This document shows, one piece after another, positions 35,380-61,343 of a stretch of 64,000 nt of DNA (position 1 is its first letter; the number at the start of each line of letters is the position of its first letter). Location of the stretch: the NCBI RefSeq assembly GCF_030815405.1, contig NZ_JAUSWX010000001.1, positions 62,001 to 126,000 of the forward strand, given 5' to 3'. The notes beneath the pieces were generated by a model, which did no database searches, was not told the origin of the DNA, and saw nothing but the letters and a program-made list of their open reading frames with translations. The position numbers and the translations under genes were made by a program. The DNA comes from Agromyces albus. GTDB lineage: Bacteria; Actinomycetota; Actinomycetes; Actinomycetales; Microbacteriaceae.

Positions 35380-35433
35380 GGTGCTCTCCCAGATAGATAT
35401 GATGAATAGTAGTCTTATCGTAGACCCGCAGCC

Positions 35434-38642: not shown

Positions 38643-38698
38643 GTGATCATCGTAGTTGGCGAGGCTGATGCCCTCTTGGAACAGCGCGGAGCACAGCG

Positions 38699-40840: not shown

Positions 40841-43800
40841 CTACGCCCTTGTCAGTCCTGCGATTGCATCGGCGAGACCACCAGCGGCGGTGTCGACCTC
40901 CTCCTGAGTGGCGCCCTTGTCGTCGGCGACGGTTTGGGCGGCGTCACGAGCGACAACGAGAGCCGCCCAGGACTCGGCGGTCCAGTCGGCCTCGGTCAGC
41001 TTGGACGCGTCGTCGAGGTGGACGGCGAGAGCGGACTTGTCGATGACCTCGACGATGAACTGGAGTTCGGCGACGTTGCAGTAGCCGTTGCCGCCGCTGA
41101 TGCGCAGGGCCTCATAGTGGACGGGCTCGGTCAGGGCGACCGTGTTCCAGCCGCGAACCGGGGTTCCAGTGCTCGCGAACTTGCTCCAGGTGGCACCCCC
41201 ATCGTTGGAACCTTGGATTTCCATGCCCGTCGCCCGCAACGGCGCGCTGTCCCTCGGGAAGTACTTCACGCCGACCACGGTGAACGCGGTCCCGTCTGTC
41301 GGGAGCACGGTATTGGTGCAGGACTTCGTGGTCGTGTCGGTGAATGTGCCGGTGTCCCCGTCGAACATGCGCCAGCCGTTCGCCGCCGCGCTCGTCGCGC
41401 CGTCAGCGGTCGCGGTGCTCGCGGCGACCCAGGACGGATCGAACGTCGCGGGCGCCTCAGCAGCCAACGGGTTCAGCAGGGTCCAGGCGTCGACGAGACG
41501 CTGCGCGAGCGCCTGCTCGTCGGCGTCGGGCCCGGCGAGTGCCTCACGCACCGCCGCGACTTCGCGGGGGAACAGGAGCTGGGAACCGCGCGTGTACGCA
41601 CCCAGGTCGACCGCGTCGGCGCGCTCGAGGAGCGGGTCGATGTCGTACGAGAACGAGCCGAAGAGCCGGAGTTCCGCGATATGGATCAGCATGCCGTTCT
41701 TGACACGCAGGTAGCGGTAGGCCTCGTCTCCAGAGGTCGGGAGGTTCTGCCACGAGAGTGTCTTGAAGGTCGGCTCAGTCAGCGTCGTCCAGGACGACAG
41801 GTCGTTCGAGCCTTCGAAGACCAGGCCGTTCATCTGCCTCACGCCCTCGTTGTCTTGGCGCGCGAGGTAGTCGAGGCGGTCCACGTTGAGCTGGGTGCCT
41901 TGGCCGAAGTCCCAGATCAGGTCGGCCTGGCCGTCGACGGTGACGATGTTGCTGAAGGTCGAGGCCTTCGCGTCGAACATCTTCGCCGCTTCGGTGGCCT
42001 TCGATGAGTCGGCCGAACCGTCCGCCTTGACCACTTGGGCGTCGGCGAGATCGATGAGATTCCGTTCGTCCGAGCCGTACAGGGCGGTGCCGTCCGTCGA
42101 GCCGTGGATCGTCGTGGCTGCCTCTGCGTCCTCAGTGGTGTGGTCGATGACGAGGTCGAGGCGGCCGCCGCCGGCGAGGTCGCCGAGCGTGCCGGTGGCC
42201 GTCCACGAAAGCGAGTTCTCGCTGGTCGCGGCGAGCTCCTGGCCGCCGAGGCTCACTGTTGCGTCGCTGATCGGCTTCGCGCTGGTGAACGTCACGTTGA
42301 CGTCGTCGCCCGCGATCACCCTGCCCGCCTCGGCGTCAGGAGAAGCCACCGAGACGTCGGTGATGTCCCCGGGGACTTCCGAGCGGTCGCCGAAGACATG
42401 GAACTCGGAGACGGACCAGATGCCCGGGTACGCGGGGTCGATCGGAGGGGCCGGCTCGTCGATCTGGAGCTTCAGGTAGCGGAACTCCTTGCCGCGGTGC
42501 TCGGCGATGACGGGGATCTTCTCCATGTCGTTGGTGTCGCCGGTCGGCCGCTCGGTGAGGAGATCCCAGGTGATGCCGTCGTTGGAGCCGTACACGTTGG
42601 TGCCCTGCGAGCGCATCGGGAACGAGAAGCGGGCCTGGAGGCCGAACTCCTCGGCCGAGACGCGATACCGGGTGCCGTAGTCGAGCGTGACGAACCCCAC
42701 GCGCAGGTCGCCGAAGTGGCTGTGGTTGCCGCCGTCGGCGAGGGCGCGGGCCTGGTCCGCGGTCATGTTGGCTGGCGTGACCGCGTCGCGGTAGTCGAGC
42801 GATCCGTCCGCCAGGCGCGGGTTGAGCAGCTCGAGCGCCTCGATGGCGTCCAGCAGGGCTTGGAACGCGGTGCGGAACTCCTCGTCGGTTCCGTTCTCGG
42901 ATGCGTCCCTCGTGGTGGCGAGTGCGGCCTGGTACGGCTCGTTGGAGGCCGTGGTGTAGACCGCGCCCTCCTCGGTGCCGTCCGCGACGGCGGCATCGAT
43001 CATCTTGGGCCGGTTCTTGGCCACGACGAGCTCGAAAGTCCGCGCAGAGACCGCATCGCCGTCGTCGGCGATGATCTGGACCTTGTGCGAGCCCCGGTCG
43101 TGGTCGGTCGGCTTCCAAGTGACCGTGCCGGTCGCAGCGTCGAGCTCCGCGCCCTCGGGCAGGCCGGAGGCGGTGAAGGCTGGGGCGCCGCCCGCGTCGG
43201 TCGCGCCGAGCTCAAAGGTCGAGGTCGCGTCCGGCCACAGGTAGTACTTGTCGCGAGCCTGCTCGAAGGCGGGCGGGGTGAGCTGCTTCTGGGCGTCGAA
43301 CATGACGGCGTCCATGTCCACGGTGGTGCCGTCGCCGATCACCCGATAGAACTGGGTGTTGGGCCCGCTCGCGGGATAGGTGACGTACCGCCATTCGCCT
43401 TGCGTGTCAGGGAGTTCGATCCGCGCCATGACGCCCGGCTCGGGTTCGAGCTCGTTGCGGGGGTCGGGCTCTTCCTTGTCGAGCACCTCGATGACCGCGG
43501 GGCCGTCGGTGCGCACGAGGACGCCCAACTTGCTGTTGCCGGGGTACATCACGCGGCTGACGACGCTCACCGTGCCGTCCGCGTCTGCGGTCGCGCGGGC
43601 GAAGGTGCGGTCGTCTTCGGTGATGATCTCGGTATCGTCGTCGAGCGGGATGCCGTAGTTGCCGAAGTTGAGCGTGGTGTCCTCCACCGGGGTCGGCTCG
43701 GTGCCGGCCAGCTCCGGCGGGAACGCCACCCAGTACTCGATACTCTTGTCGCCGGCGCTCCAGAAGTTGTTGACGCCGGTGCCGTAGTTGTAGAGGGGGC

Positions 43801-45097: not shown

Positions 45098-45170
45098 TGC
45101 ATGCTTCCTTCCCTGGAGTTGGCGCAATTGGGACCGCCGAGCGGAACCTGCATCTCACGCCGAAGCAATT

Positions 45171-45235
45171 GGATATCGCTATCCTTCCGTTCCGAAGGCT
45201 AGCGCACCGGGGAACTTCAGCGCAATCGATTGTGC
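45171..45235 (-). promoter_or_regulatory. LacI operator plus second conserved element upstream of the lyase gene
   Basis: GCGCAATCGATTGTGC (45220-45235, core palindrome CAATCGATTG) is identical to the site at 53954-53969. Fifty bases closer to the gene (centre to centre) lies GGATATCGCTATCC (45171-45184), also present at 53914-53927. On the minus strand the first site would overlap a -35 region of the lyase promoter. Confidence 0.75.
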
Positions 45236-45281
45236 TTGCAACAGGAATCCGGGCAGCGTTCCGCCCGCTGCTGAACCGATT

Positions 45282-46601
45282 TCAGAGGGCTGGTGCGAAC
45301 GCGAGCAGCACGCAACCGTGCGCGGGGAGCGCGAGGTCAACCGCTGCGCCTCCCGGAGCAACACCACGCGCGTCATTGGACTGGACCGCCACCGGCCGCG
45401 CGGTCACCTCGATCCCCGACCACAGCTCGCGCAGACTTCCCCCGGATGCAGGGATCCCGAGGTTTCCGACGTCGAGCGTGACGACGGTCTCGCTTCGGCC
45501 CAGATTGAAAGCGGCGGCGAAACGCACGCCATCCGCGCCGTCGGCTCCCCACAGAACGAGGTCGCCCTCGCGAAGGAGCTCCCGGTTGTTGAACGACGTC
45601 CGCAGCACCTCGAGCACGTCGGCATTCGTGAACAGACGGATGGTCGCGGGGTCGCTGGTCGGAAGGTCTCCTCCGATCATCAGCGGAGACTTGGCGATGG
45701 ACCACAGCGTCATCACGGTGCGGCGCTCGTCAGGCGTCAGGCGATCGTGTCGCGGCTCGCCATGTTCGGCGCGGATGCCGATCCGGCCGAGCGGGAGCAT
45801 GTCGCCGTCGGGCCATCCGTACTCCGACGCATACGGTGCCCAGCGCGCGAACCGGGCGAAGTTGGCCTCGACGTCTTCCCAGCGGTCCCAGAGGTCGTCG
45901 CAGATGCGCCACATCGTTGCGTTGTCGCGCAAGTGGTCGACGCGTGCCAGCGTCACGTCTCGCCCGGGAGAGAGGCTCAGCTGGATGTCGCGTCCGGTGC
46001 GTCGGATCGCCTCCGAGTAGGCCTCGATGTCGCTCTTCTGGTACGGCCAGAGCATGTCGTCCGTCTTGATGAAGTCGACGCCCCATTCCGCATACAGCGC
46101 CAAGGTGCTGTCGTAGTACGCCTGCGACGCCGCGTTCGTGTGGTCGAGCCCCGCCATGTCGGGATTCCACTCGCACGTGTTGGTGAGGTCGGCGATGTCG
46201 GCTGCGGTCGCCGTCGCTCCGAGCACGGGGGTGTTCGCCGCGACAGCCCGCCTCGGGATGCCCCGCATCGTGTGAATGCCGAACTTCAGCCCGAGTGCGT
46301 GGATCTTGGCGGCGAGGGGAGCGAAGCCGCGACCATCTGAGGAGCTCGGAAACCGGCCGACGTCGGGGATCAGGCGCCCGTAGTCGTCCATCGCCAGGGG
46401 GGCATCGGCGTTGTATCCGTGTGACTTCGCAGTGGGGTCGGACCAGTCGATGTCGACGACGATCGTGTCCCACCCGTACGGCAGGAGGCGCTCGGCCATG
46501 AATTCGGCGTTCGCGAGGACCTCGGCTTCGGTGACGGTTGTTCCGAAGCAGTCCCAGCTGTTCCAGCCCATGGGCGGGGTGGGCGCGGGTAGAGAAGCCA
46601 T
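45282..46601 (-). CDS. GH27 alpha-galactosidase-type enzyme
   Basis: A 439-residue cytoplasmic GH27 enzyme opening with PPMGWNSWDCFG. The probable nucleophile is Asp181 (FIKTDD) and the acid/base Asp235 (RICDDLW). A TIM barrel is followed by the usual C-terminal beta-sandwich. GH27 includes alpha-galactosidases, alpha-N-acetylgalactosaminidases and beta-L-arabinopyranosidases; the last is a real alternative given the arabinosidases nearby. It is the last gene of the 53870-45282 operon and lies upstream of the separately controlled lyase. Confidence 0.88.
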   Translation of the reverse strand: MASLPAPTPPMGWNSWDCFGTTVTEAEVLANAEFMAERLLPYGWDTIVVDIDWSDPTAKSHGYNADAPLAMDDYGRLIPDVGRFPSSSDGRGFAPLAAKIHALGLKFGIHTMRGIPRRAVAANTPVLGATATAADIADLTNTCEWNPDMAGLDHTNAASQAYYDSTLALYAEWGVDFIKTDDMLWPYQKSDIEAYSEAIRRTGRDIQLSLSPGRDVTLARVDHLRDNATMWRICDDLWDRWEDVEANFARFARWAPYASEYGWPDGDMLPLGRIGIRAEHGEPRHDRLTPDERRTVMTLWSIAKSPLMIGGDLPTSDPATIRLFTNADVLEVLRTSFNNRELLREGDLVLWGADGADGVRFAAAFNLGRSETVVTLDVGNLGIPASGGSLRELWSGIEVTARPVAVQSNDARGVAPGGAAVDLALPAHGCVLLAFAPAL

Positions 46602-46731
46602 GGTGATGAGTGTGTCTTTCCGGGGAGGGGTCAGGCAGGGAGCGGTCGATTCGTCACGGGAGTGACTCGTGGCCCGGGACGACCGTACTGCGGACCAGCC
46701 CTCGTGCGTGTCTCCGATCGCGAGGTTTCCG

Positions 46732-47707
46732 TCATTCGACCATGGCCTCTTCTCGGCTCGTGCCCCAAGCGGAGCTGAGCCGCTCGTACTCTGGGGCGGT
46801 CACCGGCAGCACGACACCGTGGCACGGGTCCTTCGGCAGCCGGAAGTTCTCAGAGGGAACCCATCGGCCGCCGGCCAGGTCGGTCGTCTCGAACGGGACG
46901 TAACGGCGTTCCGGGGTGAACTCGTCGATCCAGAGGAACCACTTCTCCTCGGTGTTCGACTTGTACACCAATGGCCCCTCGCCCCGGCTGATCGCGTCGA
47001 GGCCGATGCCCTCGGCCAGCGGCATCCACTCGCCCGCGGTCAGGGACTCGGATGTCTCTGAGAACACCGACTTGCCGTGCGGCGCCTTCCCGCCGCGCGC
47101 GCGTTCGTCTTTGAGGAAGCGGTAGTAGAGGCCCTCGTGGTCGATCACGGTGGCATCGATCGTCTGCCATCCCCGGTCGATCCACACGCGAGGCTCGGAG
47201 AACTCGCGGAAGTCACGCGTGAAGGCGTACATGATCCGGTTGTAGCTCTGGCCCACATGTTCGGTGTCGTCGTAGAGGGTCGAGGACCAGTGCACGAGGA
47301 ACGCGCCCTGCTCGGGATCCCAGACCGACTCCGGTGCCCAGGTGTTGCCCGCCCCGGTCGGTGCGACCTCGACGAGACGGCCTTCTCCCCAGTCCACCAG
47401 GTCCGTCGACTCCCAGACCATGATCGAGCGGCTGCCCCAGCGCTGCATCTGGTCCCAGTCGTCGCGGTCGTGTACGCGCAGGTCGGTCGCGACCATGAAA
47501 AACCGCGTCGCCGCTGGGGGAGCGGACGATGTGGGGGTCGCGCACGCCGCGATCGCCCAGGGTGGAGAACAGGACCGGCTTGCCGCCGTTGAGATCGTCG
47601 AACTGCAGCGGATCGTTCCCTTCGCTCAGGGCGAAATGGATCTGCTCACCGTCGACCGACTCCCGCTTGAAGTGCGCATAGAGGTAGCCCGCATACTCAG
47701 TAGGCAC
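46732..47707 (-). pseudogene. GH43-type glycosidase with a frameshift
   Basis: Two frames together form one 324-residue GH43-like protein. The first runs from the GTG at 47707 (PTEYAGYLYAHF...GVRDPHIVRSPSGD) and the second from about 47496 to 46732 (MVATDLRVHDRDDWDQ...WAPESVWDP). They are separated by one extra base near 47498-47507. Removing it restores the family pattern RFFMVATDL. GGAGGAG precedes the GTG, and the gene overlaps the GH2 stop. It is either a recent knockout or a sequence error at this spot. Confidence 0.75.
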
Positions 47708-50126
47708 GGATCTCCTCCACATCCACCGGGGACTCAGGGAAGGTCAGTCGCACGGTCGAGGCCCGGCGCGGCTCGAACTCGAGCCGGATCGACAGCTCCT
47801 CACCGCCAGAGCCGGCCTCATGGAGCGGCTGGAATCCGCGGATGGTGTCCGTGCTCGTCTCGACCAGCCACGGCTGCTTCGGCACCTCGGCGAACACGAT
47901 GACGATCCGGCTGATCTCGTAGGTGAACTCCAGATGCGCCGCGATCCACGCACCCGGTTCGCGCGAGGCCGCTCTCCAGAACGTGCCGCTGCCGAGCGCG
48001 GTCGCGTTGCCGGCCTCGTGCCGGGGCAGCGCGCTGCTCGCGGCCACCGGTCGGTATGCGGTCAACGAGACCTCGCCCGTGCCGGCGGGCGGTTCGGTGA
48101 CCCACGGAGCGGGCGGCGCGAGCCGCCAGGTGCGCTGGGGCTTTGCCGGCCCTGTCGCGAGGAGCACCAGCTCCGCGGACGACACGCCCTGCGCGGTCGC
48201 GCGGATGCGTTGCGTGCCGGGTGCGTACGAGCGGAGCTCGATCGCGCCCGCGCCGCCCCCGAGGCTGTCAGTCTCGGGAGACAGCGTGATGCTGTGACCC
48301 GAGGGGAACAGGCTTTCGCCTTCGACGACGGTGAGGGTCACGGCCCGGTCGTCGGCGACGCGGATGCCGTGCTCGTCGAGGAGTTCCACCATGATCTGCA
48401 CGTCGCCCGTGCCGTCCGTGGGCATCTCCTCGGCGTCGGAGCTCAGGCGCAGCGCGATCGCCGCACCAGGTTCGGGAAACGCAGGCGGGGCGATGCCGCG
48501 CAGCTTCTCGCGGTACCAGTAGTACGGTCTGCGCGGCATCCGGAAGTAGTCGACGAGCCCTTGCAGCCCGGCGCCCTCAGCGACGGACTTGTAGTGGAAG
48601 GCGCACCACAGGATCTTGCCCGAGCGCCACGGGTAGTCGACCTCGACGCCGTGCTCCCATTGCACCTCGTACTCTCCCGCACCACGACCGCGGACACCGT
48701 GGTACTCCGCGACGAGGTTCGGCACGCCGGGGTCGTGGAAGATCTCGGCCCCGTCGCCGTTGTAGCCGGCGAGGTCGCCCAGGACGTCGAAGCCCTTGCG
48801 CTGTGCACCCCCGACCGCGGCCGGACGGGTCGGGTCGAGCTCGCGTGCGAGGCCGACCAGCTCGCTCGTCAACGCCTTCGCCTTGCCGACCACGTGGTCG
48901 TCGCTGAAGAAGGCCTCGTTGCCGATGCTCCAGGTGACGATGCTGGGGTGGTTGCGTTGGGTCCGGATCATCTCCCGCAGCGCGCGGCGCAGGCTCTCCT
49001 CGAACTCCGGCTCGTCCTCCGGGGTCACCGGATAGGCGCTGGCGAACCAGTAACCCTCGATGTTCTCGCCGCCGATGCCCCAGAAGTGCAGCTCGGACCA
49101 GAACAGGAGCCCCTGACGATCGCACTCCTCGGCGAAGTAGGGGTGATGGGGGTAGTGGGAGCCGCGGATGATGTTCATGCCGAGGTCCTTGACCATGGCG
49201 ATGTCCCGGCGGATCCCCGAGCGGGTGCCGGCGTCGCCCCAGCCGCCCCGGTTCTGGTGCACGTTGGCGCCGTGCAGGTCGAGGTGCTCGCCGTTGAGGA
49301 AGAATCCGCGGTCGGCGGTGAACTCGAACCAGCGGATGCCGAAGGCCGTAGTCTGCAAGTCGCACACCCTGGCGTCGCCGACGACCGACACGGTGAGGGT
49401 GTAGAGGTGCGGGTGGTCCGGATGCCACAACTGCGGCTGGTCGACAGCTCCCGCGAGCGCGACCACCGCGGTCGAGCCGGCAGCGATCGTGCAGCGGACG
49501 TGAGGGAACGCCGCGACCGGCCCGCCGGCGTCGGAGACGACGGCCGCGACCGTGACCTCGACCGGACCGGGCTCGTCGTTGACGATCTCGACCGAGGCGT
49601 TCACCTCGGCCCGCTCGGAGTCGACGGTCGGGGTGGTCACGCCGATGCCGTACCAGTCGATGCGCACCCGGTCGGCGACGATCAGGCTGACGTCGCGGTA
49701 GATGCCTCCGGCGAAGCTGTAGTCCCCGGCTCGGGGTGCCAGGCGCGGGTTCCAGTGATTGTCCACCCGGACGAAGACGTCGTTCGGGCCGGCTGCCACC
49801 GCGTCGGAGATGTCGACGACGAACGGCGTGTAGCCGCCCTCGTGGCGCCCGACCAGGCGGCCGTTGACGAACACCTCGGCGACTTGGAACACGCCGAGGA
49901 ACTCCACGGCGATCCATTTGCCGATCCATGCTTCGGCCACTTCGAGGCGCCGGCGGTAGCAGCCGTGGCCGATGTAGAACCGGGGCTCGCGGAAGTCCGG
50001 CAGGTCGAACGAGTGCGGCAGACCGACGTCGTACCACTCGGGGTCGGGGGATTCGAGCTCGGCACCGGGGTGCTCGCCGTAGTCGAACGTCCAGTCGTCG
50101 TTGATGAAGCGCTGCTCGCGGATCAT
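47697..50126 (-). CDS. GH2 beta-galactosidase-type enzyme
   Basis: An 809-residue cytoplasmic GH2 protein: sugar-binding jelly roll, Ig-like domain, TIM barrel with acid/base Glu404 (WSIGNEAF) and nucleophile Glu474 (NLVAEYHG), then an Ig-like segment and a discoidin-like C-terminal domain (about 700-809). The order is that of bacterial GH2 beta-galactosidases of the DUF4982-containing kind. It would remove beta-galactose from imported oligosaccharides. It is separated from the binding-protein gene upstream by a hairpin and is translationally close to the GH43 gene. Confidence 0.88.
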   Translation of the reverse strand: MIREQRFINDDWTFDYGEHPGAELESPDPEWYDVGLPHSFDLPDFREPRFYIGHGCYRRRLEVAEAWIGKWIAVEFLGVFQVAEVFVNGRLVGRHEGGYTPFVVDISDAVAAGPNDVFVRVDNHWNPRLAPRAGDYSFAGGIYRDVSLIVADRVRIDWYGIGVTTPTVDSERAEVNASVEIVNDEPGPVEVTVAAVVSDAGGPVAAFPHVRCTIAAGSTAVVALAGAVDQPQLWHPDHPHLYTLTVSVVGDARVCDLQTTAFGIRWFEFTADRGFFLNGEHLDLHGANVHQNRGGWGDAGTRSGIRRDIAMVKDLGMNIIRGSHYPHHPYFAEECDRQGLLFWSELHFWGIGGENIEGYWFASAYPVTPEDEPEFEESLRRALREMIRTQRNHPSIVTWSIGNEAFFSDDHVVGKAKALTSELVGLARELDPTRPAAVGGAQRKGFDVLGDLAGYNGDGAEIFHDPGVPNLVAEYHGVRGRGAGEYEVQWEHGVEVDYPWRSGKILWCAFHYKSVAEGAGLQGLVDYFRMPRRPYYWYREKLRGIAPPAFPEPGAAIALRLSSDAEEMPTDGTGDVQIMVELLDEHGIRVADDRAVTLTVVEGESLFPSGHSITLSPETDSLGGGAGAIELRSYAPGTQRIRATAQGVSSAELVLLATGPAKPQRTWRLAPPAPWVTEPPAGTGEVSLTAYRPVAASSALPRHEAGNATALGSGTFWRAASREPGAWIAAHLEFTYEISRIVIVFAEVPKQPWLVETSTDTIRGFQPLHEAGSGGEELSIRLEFEPRRASTVRLTFPESPVDVEEIRAY

Positions 50127-50156
50127 GGGGGTCGGGACCTCTCAGCTGTCGGGTGC

Positions 50157-50196
50157 GGCAGGCGGGCCGCCCACACTCGTGGACGGCCCGCCTGCC
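50157..50196 (-). terminator. Hairpin between binding-protein and GH2 genes
   Basis: Perfect 13-base arms (50157-50169 and 50184-50196), extended by an inner CCAC/GTGG pairing. It lies 16 bases after the binding-protein stop on the minus strand. It may terminate part of the transcription, so that the glycosidases are made in smaller amounts than the importer. Confidence 0.7.
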
Positions 50197-50211
50197 TTGA
50201 CTCGGGTGCGA

Positions 50212-51852: not shown

Positions 51853-51915
51853 CGTTGACTGCCTTTCATTGAGGTGTTGCTGTGATTTGAGGGGGGATTG
51901 TCGAGCGTGTACGGA

Positions 51916-52875
51916 TCAGCCCTTGACCGAGCCGATCATCACGCCCTTGGTGAAGTGCCGCGCCACGAACGGGTAGACGAGCATGACGGGCACGGTGGAG
52001 ACGACGATGAGCGAGAACTTCATGAGGTCGGCGAGCTGCTGTCGCTCGAGCTGGTTCGCGAGGTCCGTGCCTCCGGCGTTGTTGTTGAGCACCAGAATGT
52101 TCCGCAGTACCAGCTGCAGTGGATAGAGGTCCTCGCTACGGAGGTAGATCAGTGCGCTGAAGTACTGGTTCCACTGCCCGATGCCGTACATGAGCGCGAT
52201 GACCGCCAGGAGCGGTTTCGACAGCGGCAGCACCACCGACCACAGGAACCGCAGATCGCTGGAGCCGTCGAGCTGGGCTGCCTCGTAGAGCTCCGCGGGA
52301 ATCGACGACCGGAAGAAGGTCATCGCGATCAGCACCTGCCACGCCCCGATCGCGGCAGGGATGATCATCGCCCAAGGGGTGTTCAGCATCCCAAGCGACT
52401 GCACGACCAAGTAGGTCGGGATCAGCCCTCCGCTGAACAGCATCGTGAACAGGACCCCGCCGATCAGCGCGCGCCGTCCGACGAGCTCGGAGCGCGAAAG
52501 CGGGTAGGCGATCATGACGGTCAGGGCGAGGCTGATCAAGGTCCCGGCGACGACGTAGAAGAACGAGTTGCGGAAACCGGTGAGGATGTCGGAGTTGCCC
52601 AGCACCGCTTCGTATCCGCGGAGCGTGAAGTCGACCGGCCACAGGAACACCTGTCCGCTCGATACCGCCGCGGGACTCGAGAAGGAGCTGGCCAGGATGT
52701 TGATCAGCGGCACGAGCACGAGGAGCAGGAACGTCGTCAGGAGGATGTAGACGCCCGCCATGAAGACCCGGTCGACGCCCGTGTCGTGAATCGGGGTGGG
52801 TCGTTGGCGTGTCTTCCGGCGCTTCGTCTCCGCCTCGGCTCCGAAGTCGGGTCGGGTTGCGGTCTCGAGGAACAT
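51916..52875 (-). CDS. LplC/YtcP-type ABC permease
   Basis: A 319-residue permease with about six membrane helices and the EAA loop (LYEAAQLDGSSDLRFLWSVVL). The ATG at 52875 follows AAGGAGAG; the longer upstream frame is a shadow of the other permease. It pairs with the 52890-53870 product, which precedes it by 14 bases. Confidence 0.9.
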   Translation of the reverse strand: MFLETATRPDFGAEAETKRRKTRQRPTPIHDTGVDRVFMAGVYILLTTFLLLVLVPLINILASSFSSPAAVSSGQVFLWPVDFTLRGYEAVLGNSDILTGFRNSFFYVVAGTLISLALTVMIAYPLSRSELVGRRALIGGVLFTMLFSGGLIPTYLVVQSLGMLNTPWAMIIPAAIGAWQVLIAMTFFRSSIPAELYEAAQLDGSSDLRFLWSVVLPLSKPLLAVIALMYGIGQWNQYFSALIYLRSEDLYPLQLVLRNILVLNNNAGGTDLANQLERQQLADLMKFSLIVVSTVPVMLVYPFVARHFTKGVMIGSVKG

Positions 52876-52889
52876 TGCGTGCTCTCCTT

Positions 52890-53870
52890 TCACCACAGCC
52901 CGTTGCCGGTCACGCGCTTTGAGACGATGTTGACGGCCACGAGGAGGATGAGATTGATGACGGAGTTGAACAGCCCGATCGCGGTCGCGAGGCTGAAGTC
53001 GGCGCCGAGCAGGCCGATCTTGTACGTGTAGGTCGCGATGATCTCCGACTGCGAGAGGTTGAGGGGGTTCTGCAGCAGGAACGCCTTCTCGAAGCCGATC
53101 GCCATGATGCCGCCGACGCTCAGGATCATCACGACCACGATCGTCGGTGCGATGCCGGGAAGATCGATGTGCCAGATCTTCTGCAGGCGGTTGGCCCCGT
53201 CGAGGCGGGCGGCCTCGTACAGGCTCGGGTCGACGCCGGCGAGCGCGGCCATGAAGATGATCGCCGAGTACCCGGCGGTCTGCCAGACGTCGCTCCAGAC
53301 GTAGACGTGCCGGAAGGATTCCGGGTCGGCGAGGAGGTTCGCGTCCTGGCCGAAGAAGCCGAGGAAATCGGCCATGAATCCGATCCGCGGCGAGAAGATC
53401 AGGATGAGCATCGAAACGACGATGACCGTCGAGAGGAAGTAGGGCGCATAGGTGACCAGTTGAACGGTCCGCTTGAAGAAGCGCAGCCGCACCTCGTTGA
53501 GGGCCAGCGCCAAGATGACCGGGATCGGGAACCCGGCCAGGAAGCCGTACAGGCTCAGCATCAGCGTGTTGCGGATGAGGTCCCACGCGACCGGGTTGGC
53601 GAAGAACCGTTCGAAGTGCTCGAACCCGACCCAGGGGCTGCCCCAGATTCCCGCGACCACGTTGTAGTCCTTGAACGCGATCACATTGTTCGCCATCGGG
53701 ATGTAGCTGAAGATGACGAAGTGGGCCACCGGGAGGATCAGCAGCAGATAGAGCTGCCAGTGGCGGCGCAAACGCCGGCGCAGACGGCGGCGAAGACGAG
53801 GGCCGCTCGCCTCTGGGGCCTCGCTCGGGCCGGAGGGTGCCGCCACCTGGCGGTCCAACACGGCGGTCAT
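52890..53870 (-). CDS. LplB-type ABC permease
   Basis: A 326-residue permease with an Arg-rich cytoplasmic start (residues 15-40), about six membrane helices and the EAA loop (LYEAARLDGANRLQKIWHIDL). It is the first gene of the leftward operon that continues through the second permease, binding protein, GH2, GH43 and GH27. The promoter region carries the CAATCGATTG operator and faces the divergent LacI gene. Confidence 0.9.
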   Translation of the reverse strand: MTAVLDRQVAAPSGPSEAPEASGPRLRRRLRRRLRRHWQLYLLLILPVAHFVIFSYIPMANNVIAFKDYNVVAGIWGSPWVGFEHFERFFANPVAWDLIRNTLMLSLYGFLAGFPIPVILALALNEVRLRFFKRTVQLVTYAPYFLSTVIVVSMLILIFSPRIGFMADFLGFFGQDANLLADPESFRHVYVWSDVWQTAGYSAIIFMAALAGVDPSLYEAARLDGANRLQKIWHIDLPGIAPTIVVVMILSVGGIMAIGFEKAFLLQNPLNLSQSEIIATYTYKIGLLGADFSLATAIGLFNSVINLILLVAVNIVSKRVTGNGLW

Positions 53871-53913
53871 GGGGCCGAATCCTTCATCGTCATCATCGCT
53901 CCTTCGCGAACTC

Positions 53914-53969
53914 GGATATCGCTATCCTGCGGCGATCCTGCGGGTCACTATAAGCGCAATCGATTGTGC
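53914..53969. promoter_or_regulatory. LacI operator plus second conserved element in the divergent promoter
   Basis: GCGCAATCGATTGTGC at 53954-53969 and GGATATCGCTATCC at 53914-53927, centres 41 bases apart, lie between the importer operon (minus) and the LacI gene (plus). Both elements and their order match the lyase promoter at 45171-45235. CACTATAAG (53947-53955) may be the -10 of the LacI gene. Confidence 0.75.
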
Positions 53970-53998
53970 ACGCAACATCGATCGTCCATACTGGACAC

Positions 53999-55000
53999 GT
54001 GGTGAGCCTGAGCGATGTTGCCGGACGGGCCGGCGTTTCCGTGTCGGTCGCCTCTCGCGCTCTTTCGGGTGATCCTGCGGCCCGGCTGAGTGAAGCCACC
54101 CGCCGACGGGTCCGCCAAGCGGCCGATGAGCTCGCGTACCGGCCCAATCACGCCGGGCGATCACTCCGTCGCGCACGGACCGACGTCATCGCACTGATCG
54201 TTCCGGACGTGACGAACGCGCTGTTCGCGGAACTCACACGAGGAGCGGATGCCGAAGCCGCCGCGCGCGGACTCACGGTGCTCCTCGGTCGCGGCGACGA
54301 GACGGCGACGGGTCTGGTCCTCGCCGAGCGTCTCTTGGCAGAGGGGCGCGTCGACGGTGTGATCCTCCAGCCCCGCGATGGAGCCGACCCCCAGGAGCTG
54401 GCGCCGCTGGCCCGGGCTGGAGCGCCCGTCGTCATCGTCCACGATGAGATCGCCGGCGCGAGCGCGGTGCTCCTCGACGATGCAGCGGCCGCGATGGCAG
54501 CCGTTGATCATCTGGTGGCGCACGGACGACAGCGCCTTGCGCTGATCGGCGGAATCGAGGCATCGTCGAGTGCGCGCCGCCGCGAAGCAGGCTTCCGTTC
54601 CGCGCTCGCCGCGCACGGAATGCCAGTGAACGAGCAGTGGATCACGCGTCTGGGGTACGGCCCTGAGGATGGCCGCGCGGCGATGGGGCAGCTGCTGAAA
54701 TCCGACGAACGACCAGACGCGGTCGTGGTCGCGAATGTCAACGCCGGCTTCGGCGCCCTCGCGGAAGCCGCGAGGCTGGGGGTGGCTGTTCCGGAGTCCG
54801 TCGCTCTCGTCGCGATCCACGACTCTTGGCCCGCCGCCTACTCGTCGCCGGCGCTGACCTGTGTCCGCACGCCCCTCTACGAACTCGGCCGTGCTGCTGT
54901 CGCAGGATTGTCCGATCGCATAGCGGGCGGGGGTCCACAGGTCGTCCGCGTCTCTGTGCCCGCGCCGGTGGTCGTTGCGCGAGCGTCGACGGCGAGTTGA
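53999..55000 (+). CDS. LacI-family repressor of the polysaccharide regulon
   Basis: A 333-residue LacI-family regulator starting VVSLSDVAGRAGVSVSVASRALSG. I chose the GTG at 53999, which gives the standard N-terminus; the GTG at 53966 would lie inside the operator. No ribosome-binding site is seen, so the message may be leaderless or nearly so. It should bind CAATCGATTG sites upstream of the importer operon, the lyase and the GH95 gene, and autoregulate. The inducer is probably an oligosaccharide or released sugar. Confidence 0.9.
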   Translation: MVSLSDVAGRAGVSVSVASRALSGDPAARLSEATRRRVRQAADELAYRPNHAGRSLRRARTDVIALIVPDVTNALFAELTRGADAEAAARGLTVLLGRGDETATGLVLAERLLAEGRVDGVILQPRDGADPQELAPLARAGAPVVIVHDEIAGASAVLLDDAAAAMAAVDHLVAHGRQRLALIGGIEASSSARRREAGFRSALAAHGMPVNEQWITRLGYGPEDGRAAMGQLLKSDERPDAVVVANVNAGFGALAEAARLGVAVPESVALVAIHDSWPAAYSSPALTCVRTPLYELGRAAVAGLSDRIAGGGPQVVRVSVPAPVVVARASTAS

Positions 55001-55039
55001 TCGTCGCGACATGACACTGCGGGCGTCGTGAGGTACGGT

Positions 55040-55055
55040 GAACAATCGATTGCGC
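55040..55055 (+). promoter_or_regulatory. LacI operator upstream of GH95
   Basis: GAACAATCGATTGCGC matches the reverse complement of the two other sites at 15 of 16 positions and keeps the CAATCGATTG core. It lies 26 bases before the GH95 ATG, in the opposite orientation to the other copies relative to the window. Confidence 0.75.
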
Positions 55056-55080
55056 ATTTAGGGAACGTATGGGAGCGACC

Positions 55081-57483
55081 ATGAACGGGAGTGACATGTA
55101 CAGGACTGACCACTTGGGCTCTGACCCGGGCGTGCTGATCAGCCACGAGCCGGCCGCGCAATTCACCGACGCGTTCCTTCTGGGAAACGGCTCGCTCGGC
55201 GCGACGGTCTACGGAGGCCGCGGCATCGAGACATTCGACCTCAACCTCGACACGGTCTGGTCGGGCGGCCCCACCGTCGACGCCGGCGCGGATGATGCGA
55301 AGATCATCGACGAGCTGCGCCGCGCCATAGCCGACGATGACCACGACCTCGCAGACGGGTTGGCGAGACGCCTTCAGAGCGACCACTGGACGCAGTCATA
55401 TCAGCCGGTCGGCCGCCTCACCTGGAGCTGGGGCGATCCTGCGCGCGTGGGTGAATACCGGCGCAGCCTCAACCTCGACGTGGCGGAGGCGAGCGTCGTG
55501 CATGCGGCGGAAGAGATGACGGCATTCGTCAGCGCGCCCGATCGCGTCCTGGTCGCCGAGACGACCGGAAGACCGAGCGCAGCATCCGCGGTGTTCACGA
55601 GCCCGCACCCCGTGTTGCTCGAGGAGCGGCTCAACGAGGGCGGCATCGAGTGGATCGTCGCGGCGGGGCGTGCGCCGAGGCTGGTCCTGCCGAACTACAT
55701 TCCGACGGACGACGAGGTCCTGTACGGCGATGAGGCGACGGGTCCCGGCGCCACGGCCCCTGCAGGCATGGGGTGGGCCATCGCCGCGGCAGTCGTCCGC
55801 GCGCCCGACGGACGCACCAGGCTGATCGCCGCCGTGACGAGCGGCTTCCGGGGCCATCTCGAACCGGTCGGCATCGACCTCGAGCAGCTCATCGCCGAGG
55901 CCCGCGCGCGCGTCGACTCCGCATTGACCGTCCGCGCGCGCGAGCTGATCGATCGGCATCGCGCAGACTATGGCGGGTTGTTCGATCGAGTGAAGATCGA
56001 TCTGACACCGTCAGGAGCCGACTCGGCCATTGCTGCCCAGCGCTACTTCAACCTCGGGCGCTACCTGCTCATCTCCTCGTCGCGACCAGGTACGCAGGCA
56101 GCCAACCTGCAGGGCATCTGGAACATCGACGTGCGACCCGGCTGGAGCTCCAACTACACCAGCAACATCAACGTTCAGATGAACTACTGGGGAGCCGAGG
56201 TGGCCGACCTCGCAGAACTCGCGCAGCCACTGCACACACTTGTGACGGACCTGGCAGACGCTGGACGACAGACCGCCCGTCTCCGCTACTCGGCTCGTGG
56301 CGCAGCGGTGCACCACAACACCGACATCTGGCGTTTCAGCGCTCCGGTCAAGGGCGAACCGGAATGGTCGAACTGGAGCATGGGGCTGTCGTGGCTCTGC
56401 GCGCACCTGGGCGACCGGCTCGACTATCGGTGGTCGGACGAGTTCGCTCGACGAGTCGCAGCGCCTGCCACTCGCGCGGCTGCAGAGTTCGTCCTCGACC
56501 AACTGGTGGAGGCCTCCGATCGCCGCCTCGTGGTGAGCCCGTCGAGTTCACCCGAGCATCCGTTCGCGCACAACGGGGCGGTCGCGAGCGTCACGGCCGG
56601 AGCGACCATCGATCAGGAGCTCGCCCATGAGTTGCTGTCACGCCATCTCCAGCTCGCCGATGCGCTCGGACTCGCCGATGAGGTCGCGGCGGACGCCGCT
56701 GCGGCGGTCGTGCGCCTGCGCCTCCCCGGCATCGACTCCGAGGGGCGAACCGAGGAATGGCGGCCCGGATTCTCGGCAACCGAACTGGACCATAGACATC
56801 TGTCCCACCTGTACGGGGCATTTCCGGGAGCCAGGATCACCCCCACCAAGGACCCGGCTGGATTCGAGGGTGTGCGGATGGCGCTGCACTCGCGGCTTGC
56901 TCATGGCGGGGGATACACGGGCTGGAGTCAGGCGTGGGTGCTGTGTCTCTCGGCCAGACTCGGAGAGAAGGAATTGGCGGAGCTGTCGTTGTCACGACTG
57001 CTCGGGGATCTCAGTTCGGCGTCTCTCCTCGACCTGCACCCCATTGGGAACGGTGGAAACATCTTCCAGATCGATGGCAACTTCGGAGCGATCGCCGGGA
57101 TCGCGGAGCTCCTGCTGCAAAGCCACGACGGTGCGGTGTCCCTCCTGCCCACCCTTCCGCCGAGCTGGACGCACGGATCGGTCAGCGGCCTGCGGGCCAG
57201 GGGCGGCATCGGCGTGGATATCTCCTGGGCCGACGGTGAACTCCAGTCGGCGGAGCTGCGGGTCGAGAACTCAGGCGTTGTCGTCGTAGAGCTGCCTGCT
57301 TCGGCCGACGTGGGGCTGATCGATGATCGCGGGGCGCCGGTGCCCCTCGTCGCCGTTCCGAGCGCAGTCGGGCGGCGGCGCTGGCAGTGGTCCGCGACCG
57401 CGGGCGGACGGTATCTCGCTAGCGTGGATCCGACCCTGATCGACGGTGGGTCGCGGATTCAGCCCGCGCTCAACACGAGATGA
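55081..57483 (+). CDS. GH95 alpha-L-fucosidase/alpha-L-galactosidase
   Basis: An 800-residue cytoplasmic GH95 enzyme with the usual N-terminal beta domain, (alpha/alpha)6 barrel and C-terminal beta domain. Catalytic-site motifs: NINVQMNYW (Asn362, Asn364), SPSSSPEHPF (Glu492) and QIDGNFG (Asp665). GH95 inverts alpha-1,2-L-fucosyl bonds, and some members prefer L-galactose. I used the ATG at 55081, with GGGAG 6 bases upstream, rather than the ATG at 55069. It heads an operon with GH43 and GH127 and carries the LacI operator. Confidence 0.92.
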   Translation: MNGSDMYRTDHLGSDPGVLISHEPAAQFTDAFLLGNGSLGATVYGGRGIETFDLNLDTVWSGGPTVDAGADDAKIIDELRRAIADDDHDLADGLARRLQSDHWTQSYQPVGRLTWSWGDPARVGEYRRSLNLDVAEASVVHAAEEMTAFVSAPDRVLVAETTGRPSAASAVFTSPHPVLLEERLNEGGIEWIVAAGRAPRLVLPNYIPTDDEVLYGDEATGPGATAPAGMGWAIAAAVVRAPDGRTRLIAAVTSGFRGHLEPVGIDLEQLIAEARARVDSALTVRARELIDRHRADYGGLFDRVKIDLTPSGADSAIAAQRYFNLGRYLLISSSRPGTQAANLQGIWNIDVRPGWSSNYTSNINVQMNYWGAEVADLAELAQPLHTLVTDLADAGRQTARLRYSARGAAVHHNTDIWRFSAPVKGEPEWSNWSMGLSWLCAHLGDRLDYRWSDEFARRVAAPATRAAAEFVLDQLVEASDRRLVVSPSSSPEHPFAHNGAVASVTAGATIDQELAHELLSRHLQLADALGLADEVAADAAAAVVRLRLPGIDSEGRTEEWRPGFSATELDHRHLSHLYGAFPGARITPTKDPAGFEGVRMALHSRLAHGGGYTGWSQAWVLCLSARLGEKELAELSLSRLLGDLSSASLLDLHPIGNGGNIFQIDGNFGAIAGIAELLLQSHDGAVSLLPTLPPSWTHGSVSGLRARGGIGVDISWADGELQSAELRVENSGVVVVELPASADVGLIDDRGAPVPLVAVPSAVGRRRWQWSATAGGRYLASVDPTLIDGGSRIQPALNTR

Positions 57484-57522
57484 GATGTGTACGAACAACG
57501 CAATGAAGAGGACGGAAACACG

Positions 57523-58431
57523 ATGAGCGCACCTGCTGTGGATGGCATCATCCGGCCTGGCACGGTCTTCCACGACGACCGTGGTCACGTCGCCCAACTG
57601 CATGGCATCGGCGTCCAGCGCGTCGGCGACCTCTGGTATGCGTGGGGAGAAGACAAGGCCGCCGGCAGCACCTTCACCGCCGTCGCCTGCTACACCTCAC
57701 CCGATCTCGCCGCTTGGCGCTACGAGGGCAACGCGCTCACCGTCGCCGACGGAGATCTCGCGTCCGATCGCGTGATCGAACGACCGAAGGTGCTCCAGCG
57801 CCCCGATGGCGCCTGGGTGATGCTCCTCCACGTCGACACCGCAGACTACTCCTACGCTCGCGTCGGATACGCGATCGCGGAGCATCCGGCCGGCCCCTAC
57901 CGCTACCTCCACAGCGAGCGGCCGATGGGCAACGTCAGCCGCGATATCGGGGTGTACCAAGAGGACGGCGTCGGCTACCTGCTCTCCGAAGACCGCGACA
58001 ACGGGCTGCAGATCTACCGGCTTCGTCCCGACTACCTGGGTGTCGAGAGCATCGTGGCGACCCTCCGGCAGCAGGATCGCCCTGAGTTCGGGTACGAGTC
58101 ACCCACCATGGTGCGCCACGGCGACACGTACTACCTGTTCGGCTCCGACCTGACCGGTTGGAGCATGAACGAGAACAAGTACGCCACCGCGACGGACCTG
58201 GCCGGGCCGTGGACACCGTGGCGGAACGTCGCCCCCGAGGGGACCCGCACGTTCGAGTCCCAAGTGAGCGTGGTGGTCCCAGTGGATGGCGGCCACGTCT
58301 ACATCGGCGACAGATGGAACCCCGACGACCTCTTCCGGTCGCCCGCTGTCGTACTCCCGCTGCGCATCGCCGACGGCACGGCCGAACTCGTCTGGCATGA
58401 CGGGTGGCAGGTCGACGAGCTGTTCCGATGA
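57523..58431 (+). CDS. GH43 propeller enzyme (exo-galactanase-like subgroup)
   Basis: A 302-residue cytoplasmic propeller protein with the motif SRDIGVYQEDGVGYLLSEDRDNGLQIYRL, which resembles GH43 members that include exo-beta-1,3-galactanases. The ATG at 57523 has GGACGGAA upstream; the in-frame GTG at 57487 has none. The stop overlaps the GH127 start (ATGA). If the subgroup is right, it would trim beta-1,3-galactan fragments. An arabinosidase or xylosidase role is the alternative. Confidence 0.75.
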   Translation: MSAPAVDGIIRPGTVFHDDRGHVAQLHGIGVQRVGDLWYAWGEDKAAGSTFTAVACYTSPDLAAWRYEGNALTVADGDLASDRVIERPKVLQRPDGAWVMLLHVDTADYSYARVGYAIAEHPAGPYRYLHSERPMGNVSRDIGVYQEDGVGYLLSEDRDNGLQIYRLRPDYLGVESIVATLRQQDRPEFGYESPTMVRHGDTYYLFGSDLTGWSMNENKYATATDLAGPWTPWRNVAPEGTRTFESQVSVVVPVDGGHVYIGDRWNPDDLFRSPAVVLPLRIADGTAELVWHDGWQVDELFR

Positions 58432-60416
58432 GCGCGACGGATGCCGCCTCACGATCGCGCTCGCTGCGGGCAACCGATCTCGGCGACGTCCTGCTCATCG
58501 ATCCCTACCTCGTCAACGCCCATCAGAAGATGGTCGACTATCTGCTGCGTCTCGAACCCGACCGATTCCTCTCCGGCTTCGCCACGAATGCGGGCTTGAC
58601 CCCGACAGCCGAGGGCCCCTACGGCGGCTGGGAGCGCACGAGCGGCACCAGGTTCCAGGGGCACTTCTTCGGCCACTACGTCTCGGCCCTCTCGCAGGCG
58701 TATGCCGGGTCGACCCAGGATGCGGAGAAGGCCCGTCTCCTGGCGAAGCTCACCACCGCCGTGAACGGGCTGAAGTTTGCACAGGCCGCGTACGCGACGA
58801 AGGATCCGGCGAATGCCGGGTACGTATCGCCGTTCCCGGTCGACCTGCTGCCGCACGGGGGCGACGGACTCCTCGTGCCGTTCTACAACCTTCACAAGGT
58901 GCTGGCCGGGTTGCTCGCCGCGTTCCAGCGGGCTCCCGAACCCGTGGCCGCCACCGCATTGGAGGTCGCGTCGCACTTCGGCACCTGGTTGGAGCGCTGG
59001 GCGGGCCGCCAAGCCGACCCGGCCGCTCTTCTGCAGACCGAGTACGGCGGGATGAACGAGGCGCTGTACGAGCTCTTCGGCATCACGAAGGACCCCGACC
59101 ACAAGCGGGCGGCCGAGTACTTCGACGAGGTCGGGCTCTTCGAGCAGCTCGCCGCGGGCAACGACGTGCTCAACGGCAAGCATGCCAACACGACGATCCC
59201 GAAGCTGGTCGGCGCCCTCAAGCGCTACACGGTGCTGACGGAAGCCCCCGACCTCTCCGCGATGCTGACTCAGGCCGAGAAGGACGATCTCGGCACCTAT
59301 CGAATGGCCGCCGAACGCTTCTGGCAGATCGTCGTCGACGATCACACCTACGCGAACGGCGGCAACAGCCGGGGCGAGCACTTCCATGCCGTCGGCACCC
59401 TGCACGAGCGGGCAACGAACGGCGAGACCACGGGTTACGGCGAGAACTCGACGGTCGAGGGATGCAACGAGTACAACATGCTCAAGCTCTCACGAGCCCT
59501 GTTCCGAGTCGACCCCGACGTGAAGTACGCGGACTACTACGAGTGGGCCTACCTCAACAGCATCCTTGCTTCGCAGAATCCCGAGACGGGCATGATGACG
59601 TACTTCCAGCCCCAGACCGCGGGCTACGCGAAGGTGTTCGGGCGTGAGTTCGACGAGTTCTGGTGTGATCACGGCACCGCCACCGAGAGCTTCACGAAGC
59701 TCGGCGACTCGATCTACTTCATCGACGAGAAGTCGATCTACGTGAACATGTTCCGATCGACGGTGCTCTCGAGCACGGAGCACAACCTGCGGCTCGAGCA
59801 GACGGCGGACGTTCCCAACGACGAGACGATGACGATCTCGGTCTCAGCTCTCGACGCAGGCGCGGTCGCCCCGGGCACGACGCTGCTGCTTCGCGTGCCG
59901 TCATGGGTAGCCGGCACGCCGACCCTCGTCGTCAACGGGCAGCCGGAGGACATCTCGGCGCTCCATCACGACGGCTACCTGGCGTTCGAGGTCGCCGCGG
60001 GCGATGAGATCATCTACACGCTGCCGGCGAAGGTCGCTGTCGACGACGCCACCGAGAACCCGAACTGGGTCGCTTTCACGTACGGACCCGTGCTGCTCGC
60101 CACCGAACTCAGCCGCAAGAACGTGGACTCGACGTACACCTCCGGCGTGCTCGTGCGGATGAGCGTGGCTGACAAGACGCTCGGCAACAACCTCCGCGTC
60201 GACGATGCTGCAAGGTGGAAGCGCGACATCGAAGCAAACCTCCTCCGCATCGAGAACGGCGAGAACGCGAACGGCGTCGAGACGATGCGTTTCTCGCTGG
60301 AGCGCGTCGACGCGGCATCCGCCGACCTGGTGTTCGAGCCGTACTACAGCCTCTATGACGCGCGCTACGCCACGTACATGACGCTCGTGGAGCCGGATTC
60401 CCCGCAACGGTCCTAG
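58428..60416 (+). CDS. GH127 beta-L-arabinofuranosidase-like enzyme
   Basis: A 662-residue DUF1680/GH127 protein: (alpha/alpha)6 barrel plus beta-sandwich. In the family a Cys nucleophile sits in a zinc site made by one Glu and three Cys. Here Glu344 and Cys346 (VEGCNEYN) and the nucleophile position Cys413 (EFWCDHGT) are present, but the following family Cys is Asp414. It probably removes beta-L-arabinofuranose or a related sugar in the cytoplasm. It is translationally coupled to the GH43 gene. Confidence 0.85.
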   Translation: MSATDAASRSRSLRATDLGDVLLIDPYLVNAHQKMVDYLLRLEPDRFLSGFATNAGLTPTAEGPYGGWERTSGTRFQGHFFGHYVSALSQAYAGSTQDAEKARLLAKLTTAVNGLKFAQAAYATKDPANAGYVSPFPVDLLPHGGDGLLVPFYNLHKVLAGLLAAFQRAPEPVAATALEVASHFGTWLERWAGRQADPAALLQTEYGGMNEALYELFGITKDPDHKRAAEYFDEVGLFEQLAAGNDVLNGKHANTTIPKLVGALKRYTVLTEAPDLSAMLTQAEKDDLGTYRMAAERFWQIVVDDHTYANGGNSRGEHFHAVGTLHERATNGETTGYGENSTVEGCNEYNMLKLSRALFRVDPDVKYADYYEWAYLNSILASQNPETGMMTYFQPQTAGYAKVFGREFDEFWCDHGTATESFTKLGDSIYFIDEKSIYVNMFRSTVLSSTEHNLRLEQTADVPNDETMTISVSALDAGAVAPGTTLLLRVPSWVAGTPTLVVNGQPEDISALHHDGYLAFEVAAGDEIIYTLPAKVAVDDATENPNWVAFTYGPVLLATELSRKNVDSTYTSGVLVRMSVADKTLGNNLRVDDAARWKRDIEANLLRIENGENANGVETMRFSLERVDAASADLVFEPYYSLYDARYATYMTLVEPDSPQRS

Positions 60417-60420
60417 TCCC

Positions 60421-60516
60421 GTGGGCGGCGTCTACGGTGTCACCATCACGGCGTATGCGCAGGATCACACGACCTCGGTCGCGTATCGCCTCGAGATCGT
60501 GCGCAGCGACCAGTGA
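60421..60516 (+). pseudogene. Orphan C-terminal tail (Ig-like remnant)
   Basis: A 31-codon frame (VYGVTITAYAQDHTTSVAYRLEIV...) begins just after the GH127 stop in a different frame. Its pattern is that of the last strands of a bacterial Ig-like or cadherin-like domain. No such domain precedes it, so it looks like the tail of a protein whose body was deleted, or of a longer GH127 version. Confidence is low because of its length. Confidence 0.35.
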
Positions 60517-61290: not shown

Positions 61291-61343
61291 GCGCACAGCC
61301 TAGCGAGCACGACGTCACACCTATGATGTTCACTCTTGCAGAG

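Follow-up and report, generated by a model that had tools for sequence, protein, structure and literature searches.

A locus of Agromyces albus predicted to serve type II arabinogalactan use under LacI control, with a secreted toroid-fold protein from a candidate new enzyme family

Which polymer is taken apart by a block of Agromyces albus genes that encodes a LacI repressor, a sugar importer, several glycoside hydrolases and a secreted protein of 1418 residues, and what opens that polymer outside the cell? The block lies in a 64,000-nucleotide stretch of DNA (the window), positions 62001–126000 of a single-contig genome of 4,268,800 bases. The favoured answer, with a probability of roughly 0.7, is a dual-regulated utilization system for type II arabinogalactan of the arabinogalactan-protein (AGP) kind, opened by a toroid-fold enzyme. 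This reading is drawn from the closest relatives of the encoded enzymes, an exo-β-1,3-galactanase, a β-1,3-L-arabinofuranosidase and a β-L-arabinopyranosidase, and from an adjoining L-fucose pathway. AGPs coat plant roots and gums. The initial annotation had proposed a fucose- and arabinose-bearing acidic galactan under LacI control; the exo-galactanase, the arabinosidases, the L-fucose genes and a unique set of operators support this proposal apart from the word 'acidic', which is discussed below.

The second GH43 protein of the block (Table 1) is closest to the exo-β-1,3-galactanase 5flw, followed by 7bys ('galactan 1,3-beta-galactosidase') at 195.9 bits, with differently named matches at no more than 151 bits, in keeping with the remark in the initial annotation that some members of GH43 are exo-galactanases. 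The GH27 protein had been regarded as a galactoside enzyme. Its closest structure is the β-L-arabinopyranosidase Abp, the third-best being 3cc1, a putative α-N-acetylgalactosaminidase (404.3 bits). The specificity position, which is Asp in α-galactosidases and Ile or Glu in β-L-arabinopyranosidases (PMC4598101; this and the other papers are cited from partial texts), is Ile in the block protein, where VVDIDW is aligned to VVDIQW of Abp (Ile counted as chain residue 67). On the Ile and the closeness to Abp an α-galactosidase was rejected, and the galactoside assignment is not supported. The protein resembles the GH27 β-L-arabinopyranosidases GsAbp and CpArap27 in its best match and diagnostic Ile, but comes from a different species and locus, with an activity that is predicted.

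The protein encoded at 58404, described earlier as GH127, matches 8k7x/8k7y with 533 bits and 5opj with 245.8 bits, compared with 25–30 bits for GH127-type structures, and GH127 was rejected on these scores. From their names and from PMC10850190, 8k7x and 5opj appear to be GH146 enzymes, and 8k7x/8k7y are taken to be Bll3HypBA1 on the strength of the entry name 'beta1,3-L-arabinofuranoside', the partial text of that paper not giving this PDB code. Bll3HypBA1 (GH146) removes β-1,3-L-arabinofuranose (Araf) from AGPs and its gene is located in an AGP cluster (PMC10850190). A pectic target, such as side chains of rhamnogalacturonan I or II (RG-I, RG-II) or seed mucilage, is improbable. Enzymes of GH95, GH2 and GH127/GH146 also take part in the breakdown of RG-I and RG-II, and the GH146-like protein gives a weak match to an aceric-acid-hydrolase model (46 bits against a cut-off of 950); the closest relatives, however, are the exo-β-1,3-galactanase and the β-L-arabinopyranosidase, and no Pfam match to pectate lyase, GH28, GH78 or GH106 was found among the open reading frames (ORFs) scanned, a part of those in 26598–63742.

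The arabinogalactan reading gains a fate for L-fucose from the genes at 32739–37836, which encode an amidohydrolase, a short-chain dehydrogenase/reductase (SDR), a Zn-dependent alcohol dehydrogenase (ADH), an aldo/keto reductase (AKR) and L-fuconate dehydratase (FucD). Together they fit oxidative L-fucose use, judging by sequence. L-Fuconate dehydratase could also take L-galactonate. A role as lactonase is proposed for the amidohydrolase because its gene adjoins that of FucD; the best NCBIfam model for the SDR is KduD (324.5 bits, below the cut-off of 338.85). As in the Xanthomonas pathway, an L-fuconate dehydratase, an amidohydrolase-type lactonase and an SDR are present, whereas an AKR stands in place of the first dehydrogenase and the pathway as a whole is a prediction. 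Use of anhydrogalactose was rejected, since the best anhydrogalactonate cycloisomerase match reached 99.7 bits compared with 593.5 bits to the L-fuconate dehydratase 2hxt. The link to L-fucose genes is not unique to this genome: in Streptomyces himalayensis (locus L014), FucD, ADH, SDR, AKR and GntR genes are found beside a relative of the secreted-protein gene.

The GH95 protein contains the Asn pair (N-x-N, here N-I-N) in a segment aligned with known GH95 structures; this pair has a catalytic role (PMC4491172). It also carries the Thr seen in an α-L-galactosidase. An early study associated this Thr with L-galactose (PMC4491172), but it was later met in an L-fucose-specific enzyme (PMC8245568), a counter-example on which assignment as an L-galactosidase from the Thr alone was dropped. 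Both L-fucose and L-galactose are therefore possible substrates of GH95. The same Thr, together with the alginate-lyase-type fold of the secreted protein, could point to an algal or bacterial polymer containing L-galactose or fucose (fucoidan, ulvan or an exopolysaccharide). Such a substrate is very improbable, given that the Thr does not decide specificity (PMC8245568), that the arabinosidases and the exo-galactanase indicate plants and that most relatives belong to soil- and plant-associated genera.

Regulation by LacI through three near-identical operators had been proposed at the outset. In a scan of the whole genome, GCGCAATCGATTGTGC with at most one mismatch was found at exactly three sites, all in the block, and this uniqueness supports the proposal. 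The sites precede the secreted-protein gene, the divergent importer/lacI pair and the GH95–GH43–GH127 unit. Operator 2 is placed between the importer operon and lacI, so that all three units could plausibly be under a single repressor. At three mismatches, 43 matches were obtained compared with 18 in a reversed control (palindromic sites counted on both strands), so that looser GCGCAATCGATTGTGC sites carry little meaning. In Microbacterium aurantiacum (locus L011), a LacI 81% identical to that of the window occurs with operator-like sites before the secreted-protein gene (two mismatches) and close to FucD (three mismatches).

The secreted protein is the sole tested enzyme of the block with a signal-peptide-like start, a hydrophobic N-terminal stretch detected by crude hydropathy. 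The same measure showed no such stretch in the GH27, GH2, GH95, second GH43 and GH127-like proteins (the broken GH43 was left out), consistent with their earlier description as cytoplasmic. The catalytic domain has the (α/α) toroid fold of the PL5/PL17/PL38 alginate-lyase group, so that the outcome which the initial annotation had named against itself, a clearly non-catalytic or unrelated family, was not what was found. As in these alginate lyases, an E-x-x-R motif accompanies the toroid, and an N-Q-H in the near family may correspond to their N-[NQ]-H; in contrast to them, a Glu replaces the lyase Tyr, the neighbouring genes are different and the Pfam Alginate_lyase score of 17.2 bits (20 bits in another run) is below the cut-off of 22.2. 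Profile searches of the secreted family reach PL38 at E values of 0.009–0.028 with alignments that end before the second motif, and a phmmer search of the whole protein against the PDB gave no matches. PL27 is not among the 50 fold matches listed, an absence that proves nothing.

In 11/11 canonical loci (L093–L103), the Tyr in question is found six positions beyond the Arg of the E-x-x-R motif, and profile alignment pairs it with the Glu (hhalign probability 87.2, E = 3.9e-6). For the alignment, 8/10 canonical sequences tried had passed an N[NQ]H filter, which favours this motif but does not act on the Tyr; the Tyr count covers all of L093–L103. Judged from PDB entry titles, the residue replaced would be the catalytic Y246 of PL5 or Y298 of PL38. 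In an alignment of 26 near and distant members of the secreted-protein family this position is variable, the invariant columns being A, R, N, E, R, D, H and Q. The neutralising Asn and catalytic His of the lyases (N-N-H) may correspond to N-Q-H in the near family, in which several Tyr residues are also invariant, and the most distant members are without the His.

These features bear on two accounts of the reaction. A true uronate β-eliminating lyase of PL5/PL17/PL38 type, cutting at glucuronic acid of an acidic arabinogalactan or gum, is rather unlikely: the lyase Tyr is Glu here at a place that varies in the family, and no GH88 or GH105 protein over the cut-off was found in this genome or in 38/50 family-carrying genomes (50 of the 80 loci sampled below, one per genome judging from titles), although a GH88 comparison (12/50 versus 24/197) leans towards a lyase. 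A hydrolase, or some other enzyme without elimination chemistry, that attacks AGP side chains through an E-x-x-R-D-x-x-H active site can be held only tentatively. The eight invariant columns, the Tyr missing from its place and the lack of any unsaturated-uronide hydrolase over the cut-off in the genome favour it, whereas the toroid-fold entries among the 50 matches listed are all polysaccharide lyases or dermatan sulfate epimerase, and a Tyr could come from another loop, several being invariant in the near family. For the 'secreted lyase-like protein' of the initial annotation, the ORF, the hydrophobic N-terminus and the toroid fold stand, while 'lyase' and 'acidic' are unproven; the Tyr-to-Glu replacement and the lack of GH88/GH105 over the cut-off speak against its view that a uronate lyase opens an acidic polymer. 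The secreted toroid proteins are regarded as a candidate new enzyme family.

In a species-representative collection, 272 stretches encode members of this family. Of 494 family proteins found, the 120 listed include no functional name; names such as 'putative Ig domain-containing protein' and 'discoidin domain-containing protein' occur, and some short relatives are named 'alginate lyase family protein'. A few relatives are found outside actinobacteria, in Massilia, Duganella and Verrucomicrobiota. Proteins of several Glycomyces, one Arthrobacter and one Microbacterium are 85–89% identical to the secreted protein (86–89% for loci L006, L021 and L011), and yet among 299 genomes of the window's own family it is present in four (E ≤ 1e-40), the three others being 43–44% identical, and none of its five sampled genus mates carries it. 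The high identity across genera and this absence suggest horizontal transfer.

Neighbouring genes were compared within about 10 kb in the best 80 of the 272 stretches, drawn from 16 genera that are all actinobacterial except for one Paenibacillus; these loci are not independent (24 are from Glycomyces and 18 from Microbacterium), many flanks are cut and the query for the first GH43 was its C-terminal piece only. A relative of the exo-β-1,3-galactanase is near the secreted-protein gene in 24/80 loci, and the exo-galactanase occurs in 2/299 genomes of the window's family (E ≤ 1e-60). A close GH36 (at least 700 bits) is near in 23/80 loci; of the four genomes among the 299 with a GH36 above 830 bits, three are among the four that carry the secreted protein, and in two (G125 and G011) the genes are about 0.3 and 4 kb apart, respectively. 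Relatives of the 2-hydroxyacid dehydrogenase are near in 40/80 loci from nine genera, a raw count. In M. aurantiacum (L011), GH95, FucD, exo-galactanase, both LacI types and an intact relative of the first GH43 surround the secreted-protein gene, with related operator sites.

A second palindrome, GGATATCGCTATCC, which is absent from the initial annotation, is common to two upstream regions of the block. Elsewhere in the genome it occurs exactly at 337850, with one mismatch at 184272 and 4081502 and at further sites with two mismatches; a reversed control of the scan gave one match. The site at 337850 precedes a gene (L003:6100–7848) whose apparently secreted product combines an Alginate_lyase domain with the arabinose-binding domain AbfB, and that at 4081502 precedes a paralogue 38% identical to the secreted protein (L005:8564–12109). 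The site at 184272 lies between lacI and GH36 genes (L004:7102–10405), with a two-mismatch site at 183101 before the same lacI. A GGATAACGATATCC-type palindrome is common to the block, the lacI/GH36 pair and the two other apparently secreted alginate-lyase-fold genes.

Across the loci of other genomes, GGATAACGATATCC or its symmetric form with at most one mismatch is found no more than 400 nt before the match in 18/78 loci from five genera (two of the 80, with matches that begin too close to the end of the locus, were left out). This corresponds to 19 sites in 31,200 upstream bases compared with 13 in 1,532,617 bases elsewhere in the same loci, a 72-fold figure that is post hoc, since the consensus was fixed once the sites in this genome had been seen and the same loci had been scanned a first time. 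In the remaining 60/78 loci, including 17/18 from Microbacterium, the best site has two to six mismatches. The second lacI (genome positions 183164–184213) is about 76 kb from the secreted-protein gene, and relatives of its product with at least 300 bits are encoded within about 10 kb in 7/80 loci; this LacI-family protein is the best candidate reader of GGATAACGATATCC-type sites.

Several observations weigh against use of type II arabinogalactan. The first GH43 is frameshifted, either in reality or through an assembly error, the GH2 may be a β-galactosidase or a β-glucuronidase and a secreted endo-galactanase was not seen among the genes of the block. The Cys3-Glu zinc site of the GH146-like protein is incomplete: E-G-C is present, but W-C-D is found where two distant relatives have W-C-C, an Asp for one Cys of the pair with which function is still possible. 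The exo-galactanase link comes from three genera only, with 18/24 loci from Microbacterium, and GH36 in the broad sense (E ≤ 1e-100) is common (44/299 genomes), so that its presence in 36/80 loci at 400 bits or more says little. With the thresholds applied, relatives of GH27 and of the GH146-like protein are found in 0/80 loci, GH95 in three, FucD in two, and GH2 and the binding protein in two, with distant GH127-type matches (31–32%) in L043 and L055; the full set is therefore not conserved. The reading is a prediction from sequence.

If type II arabinogalactan is the substrate, the secreted toroid-fold enzyme, with its binding modules, would act on the polymer outside the cell and the resulting oligosaccharides would enter through the ABC importer. 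Inside, β-L-arabinopyranose caps may be removed by GH27, β-L-Araf by the GH146-like protein, α-L-Araf by the GH43 that is frameshifted here and α-L-fucose or L-galactose by GH95, while the β-1,3-galactan would be trimmed by the exo-β-1,3-galactanase, aided by GH2. Freed L-fucose would be oxidized via L-fuconate by the adjacent pathway. LacI would repress the three units through the three operators. Further control may come, at GGATAACGATATCC-type sites that also precede genes for other secreted toroid-fold enzymes, from a second regulator, for which the LacI-family protein with its gene about 76 kb away is the probable candidate.

The AGP cluster of Bifidobacterium longum contains exo-β-1,3-galactanase (BLLJ_1840), Bl1,6Gal (BLLJ_1841), Bll3HypBA1 (BLLJ_1848), BlArafE (BLLJ_1850) and GAfase (PMC10850190, PMC8939339). 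Common to both systems are the exo-β-1,3-galactanase, a GH146 β-L-arabinofuranosidase and a GH43 α-L-arabinofuranosidase. The key B. longum enzymes are anchored at the cell surface (PMC8939339), whereas the hydrolases tested here look cytoplasmic and the toroid-fold protein is the sole secreted enzyme seen; the present locus also adds GH27, GH95 and L-fucose oxidation. A review of microbial type II arabinogalactan degradation names enzymes of fungi and individual ones of Streptomyces, Clostridium, Bifidobacterium, Geobacillus and others (PMC8424115), and in its text neither 'lyase' nor 'actinobacteria' occurs as a word start. The literature searched on AGPs, these enzyme types and their regulation, mostly open-access papers, contained no description of the secreted family or of an actinobacterial locus with this set, in line with the earlier statement that none was known. 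Arabinogalactan use is already known; as far as this literature goes, novelty lies in the gene set, in the predicted dual control and, most of all, in the secreted family.

The features of the block are listed in Table 1. In the order of transcription, a minus-strand run (53870–45282) encodes two permeases, a solute-binding lipoprotein, GH2, GH43 and GH27; the secreted-protein gene comes next, with its own operator-bearing upstream region. Divergent from this importer operon are lacI, GH95, the second GH43 and the GH127-like gene. The importer, labelled LplA-type in the initial annotation, is present as two PF00528 permeases and a binding protein with a lipoprotein-like start, which had no match in the Pfam scan and has relatives in loci L017 and L023. 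The gene block itself is real, but its left limit of 40841 was too narrow and it continues to 32739. Likewise, the GH27, GH2, GH95, GH43 and DUF1680-type (GH127/GH146) genes listed earlier are all present, with the corrections that the first GH43 is frameshifted and that 'GH127' is of GH146 type.

Table 1. Features of the gene block, in window coordinates
Feature	Position	Strand	Evidence or remark
Amidohydrolase (Amidohydro_2), candidate L-fucono-1,5-lactonase	32739..33599	-	PF04909, 94.6 bits; start at MTLID by eye
SDR, candidate 2-keto-3-deoxy-L-fuconate dehydrogenase	33596..34351	-	PF13561; role inferred
Zn-dependent alcohol dehydrogenase	34348..35445	-	PF08240/PF00107
Aldo/keto reductase, candidate L-fucose (L-galactose) 1-dehydrogenase	35510..36499	+	PF00248, 174.8 bits; role inferred from context
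L-Fuconate dehydratase	36496..37836	+	593.5 bits to 2hxt
GntR/FCD regulator	37866..38738	-	PF00392, PF07729
2-Hydroxyacid dehydrogenase	38699..39676	+	PF02826, 148.4 bits
GH43-like protein	39824..40771	+	PF04616, 30.1 bits (cut-off 32.2); relatives in 4/80 loci
Secreted protein, 1418 aa	40841..45097	-	(α/α) toroid, CBM6/35-like sandwich, He_PIG Ig, F5/8 type C, FIVAR (weak)
Second palindrome GGATATCGCTATCC	45171..45184		Before secreted-protein gene
LacI operator 1 GCGCAATCGATTGTGC	45220..45235		0 mismatches; before secreted-protein gene
GH27, predicted β-L-arabinopyranosidase	45282..46601	-	418.5 bits to Geobacillus Abp 4nx0
GH43 (α-L-arabinofuranosidase-like), frameshifted	46732..47722	-	Two overlapping frames, 47213-47722 and 46732-47496
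GH2, β-galactosidase or β-glucuronidase	47697..50126	-	Weak C-terminal F5/8 match
Solute-binding lipoprotein, 546 aa	50212..51852	-	Lipoprotein-like start
ABC permease B	51916..52818 (start approximate)	-	PF00528, 38 bits
ABC permease A	52890..53870	-	PF00528, 51.4 bits
Second palindrome GGATATCGCTATCC	53914..53927		Before importer operon
LacI operator 2 GCGCAATCGATTGTGC	53954..53969		0 mismatches; between importer operon and lacI
LacI repressor	53999..55000	+	PF00356, PF13377; start by eye
LacI operator 3	55040..55055	minus-strand match	1 mismatch to GCGCAATCGATTGTGC; before GH95
GH95, α-L-fucosidase or α-L-galactosidase	55069..57483	+	PF22124, 390.2 bits
GH43, predicted exo-β-1,3-galactanase	57487..58431	+	304.9 bits to 5flw
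GH146-like β-L-arabinofuranosidase	58404..60416	+	533.1 bits to 8k7x

Other clusters flank the block. Genes for GH66, GH13 and GH49 enzymes and sugar-binding proteins (8627–24939) probably form a dextran utilization cluster. A separate small sugar cluster (26598–32728) contains a LacI, an ABC importer and a GH39 protein (31085–32728); identification of the latter as an AGP GAfase was rejected, its closest structures being β-xylosidases. To the right (60520–63742 and L001:2520–11497), a GntR/FCD regulator, parts of an ABC importer, an enolase-superfamily protein, an isopropylmalate-dehydrogenase-like protein and an FAD oxidoreductase may constitute a sugar-acid cluster.

With its uniquely placed operator set, one candidate extracellular enzyme and a proposed fate for L-fucose, the locus is a testable system. 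A more far-reaching proposal, put forward at somewhat less than even odds, is that the secreted proteins are a new CAZyme family specialized for AGPs, in which N-Q-H and E-x-x-R-D-x-x-H would replace the alginate-lyase machinery, and that they belong to an actinobacterial regulon, seen here in five genera, read by a LacI-type protein at GGATAACGATATCC; the family would then supply the missing step by which root-associated actinobacteria open AGPs outside the cell. Since the family is widespread and recurs beside AGP-type enzymes, expression of one member could assign a function to many genes.

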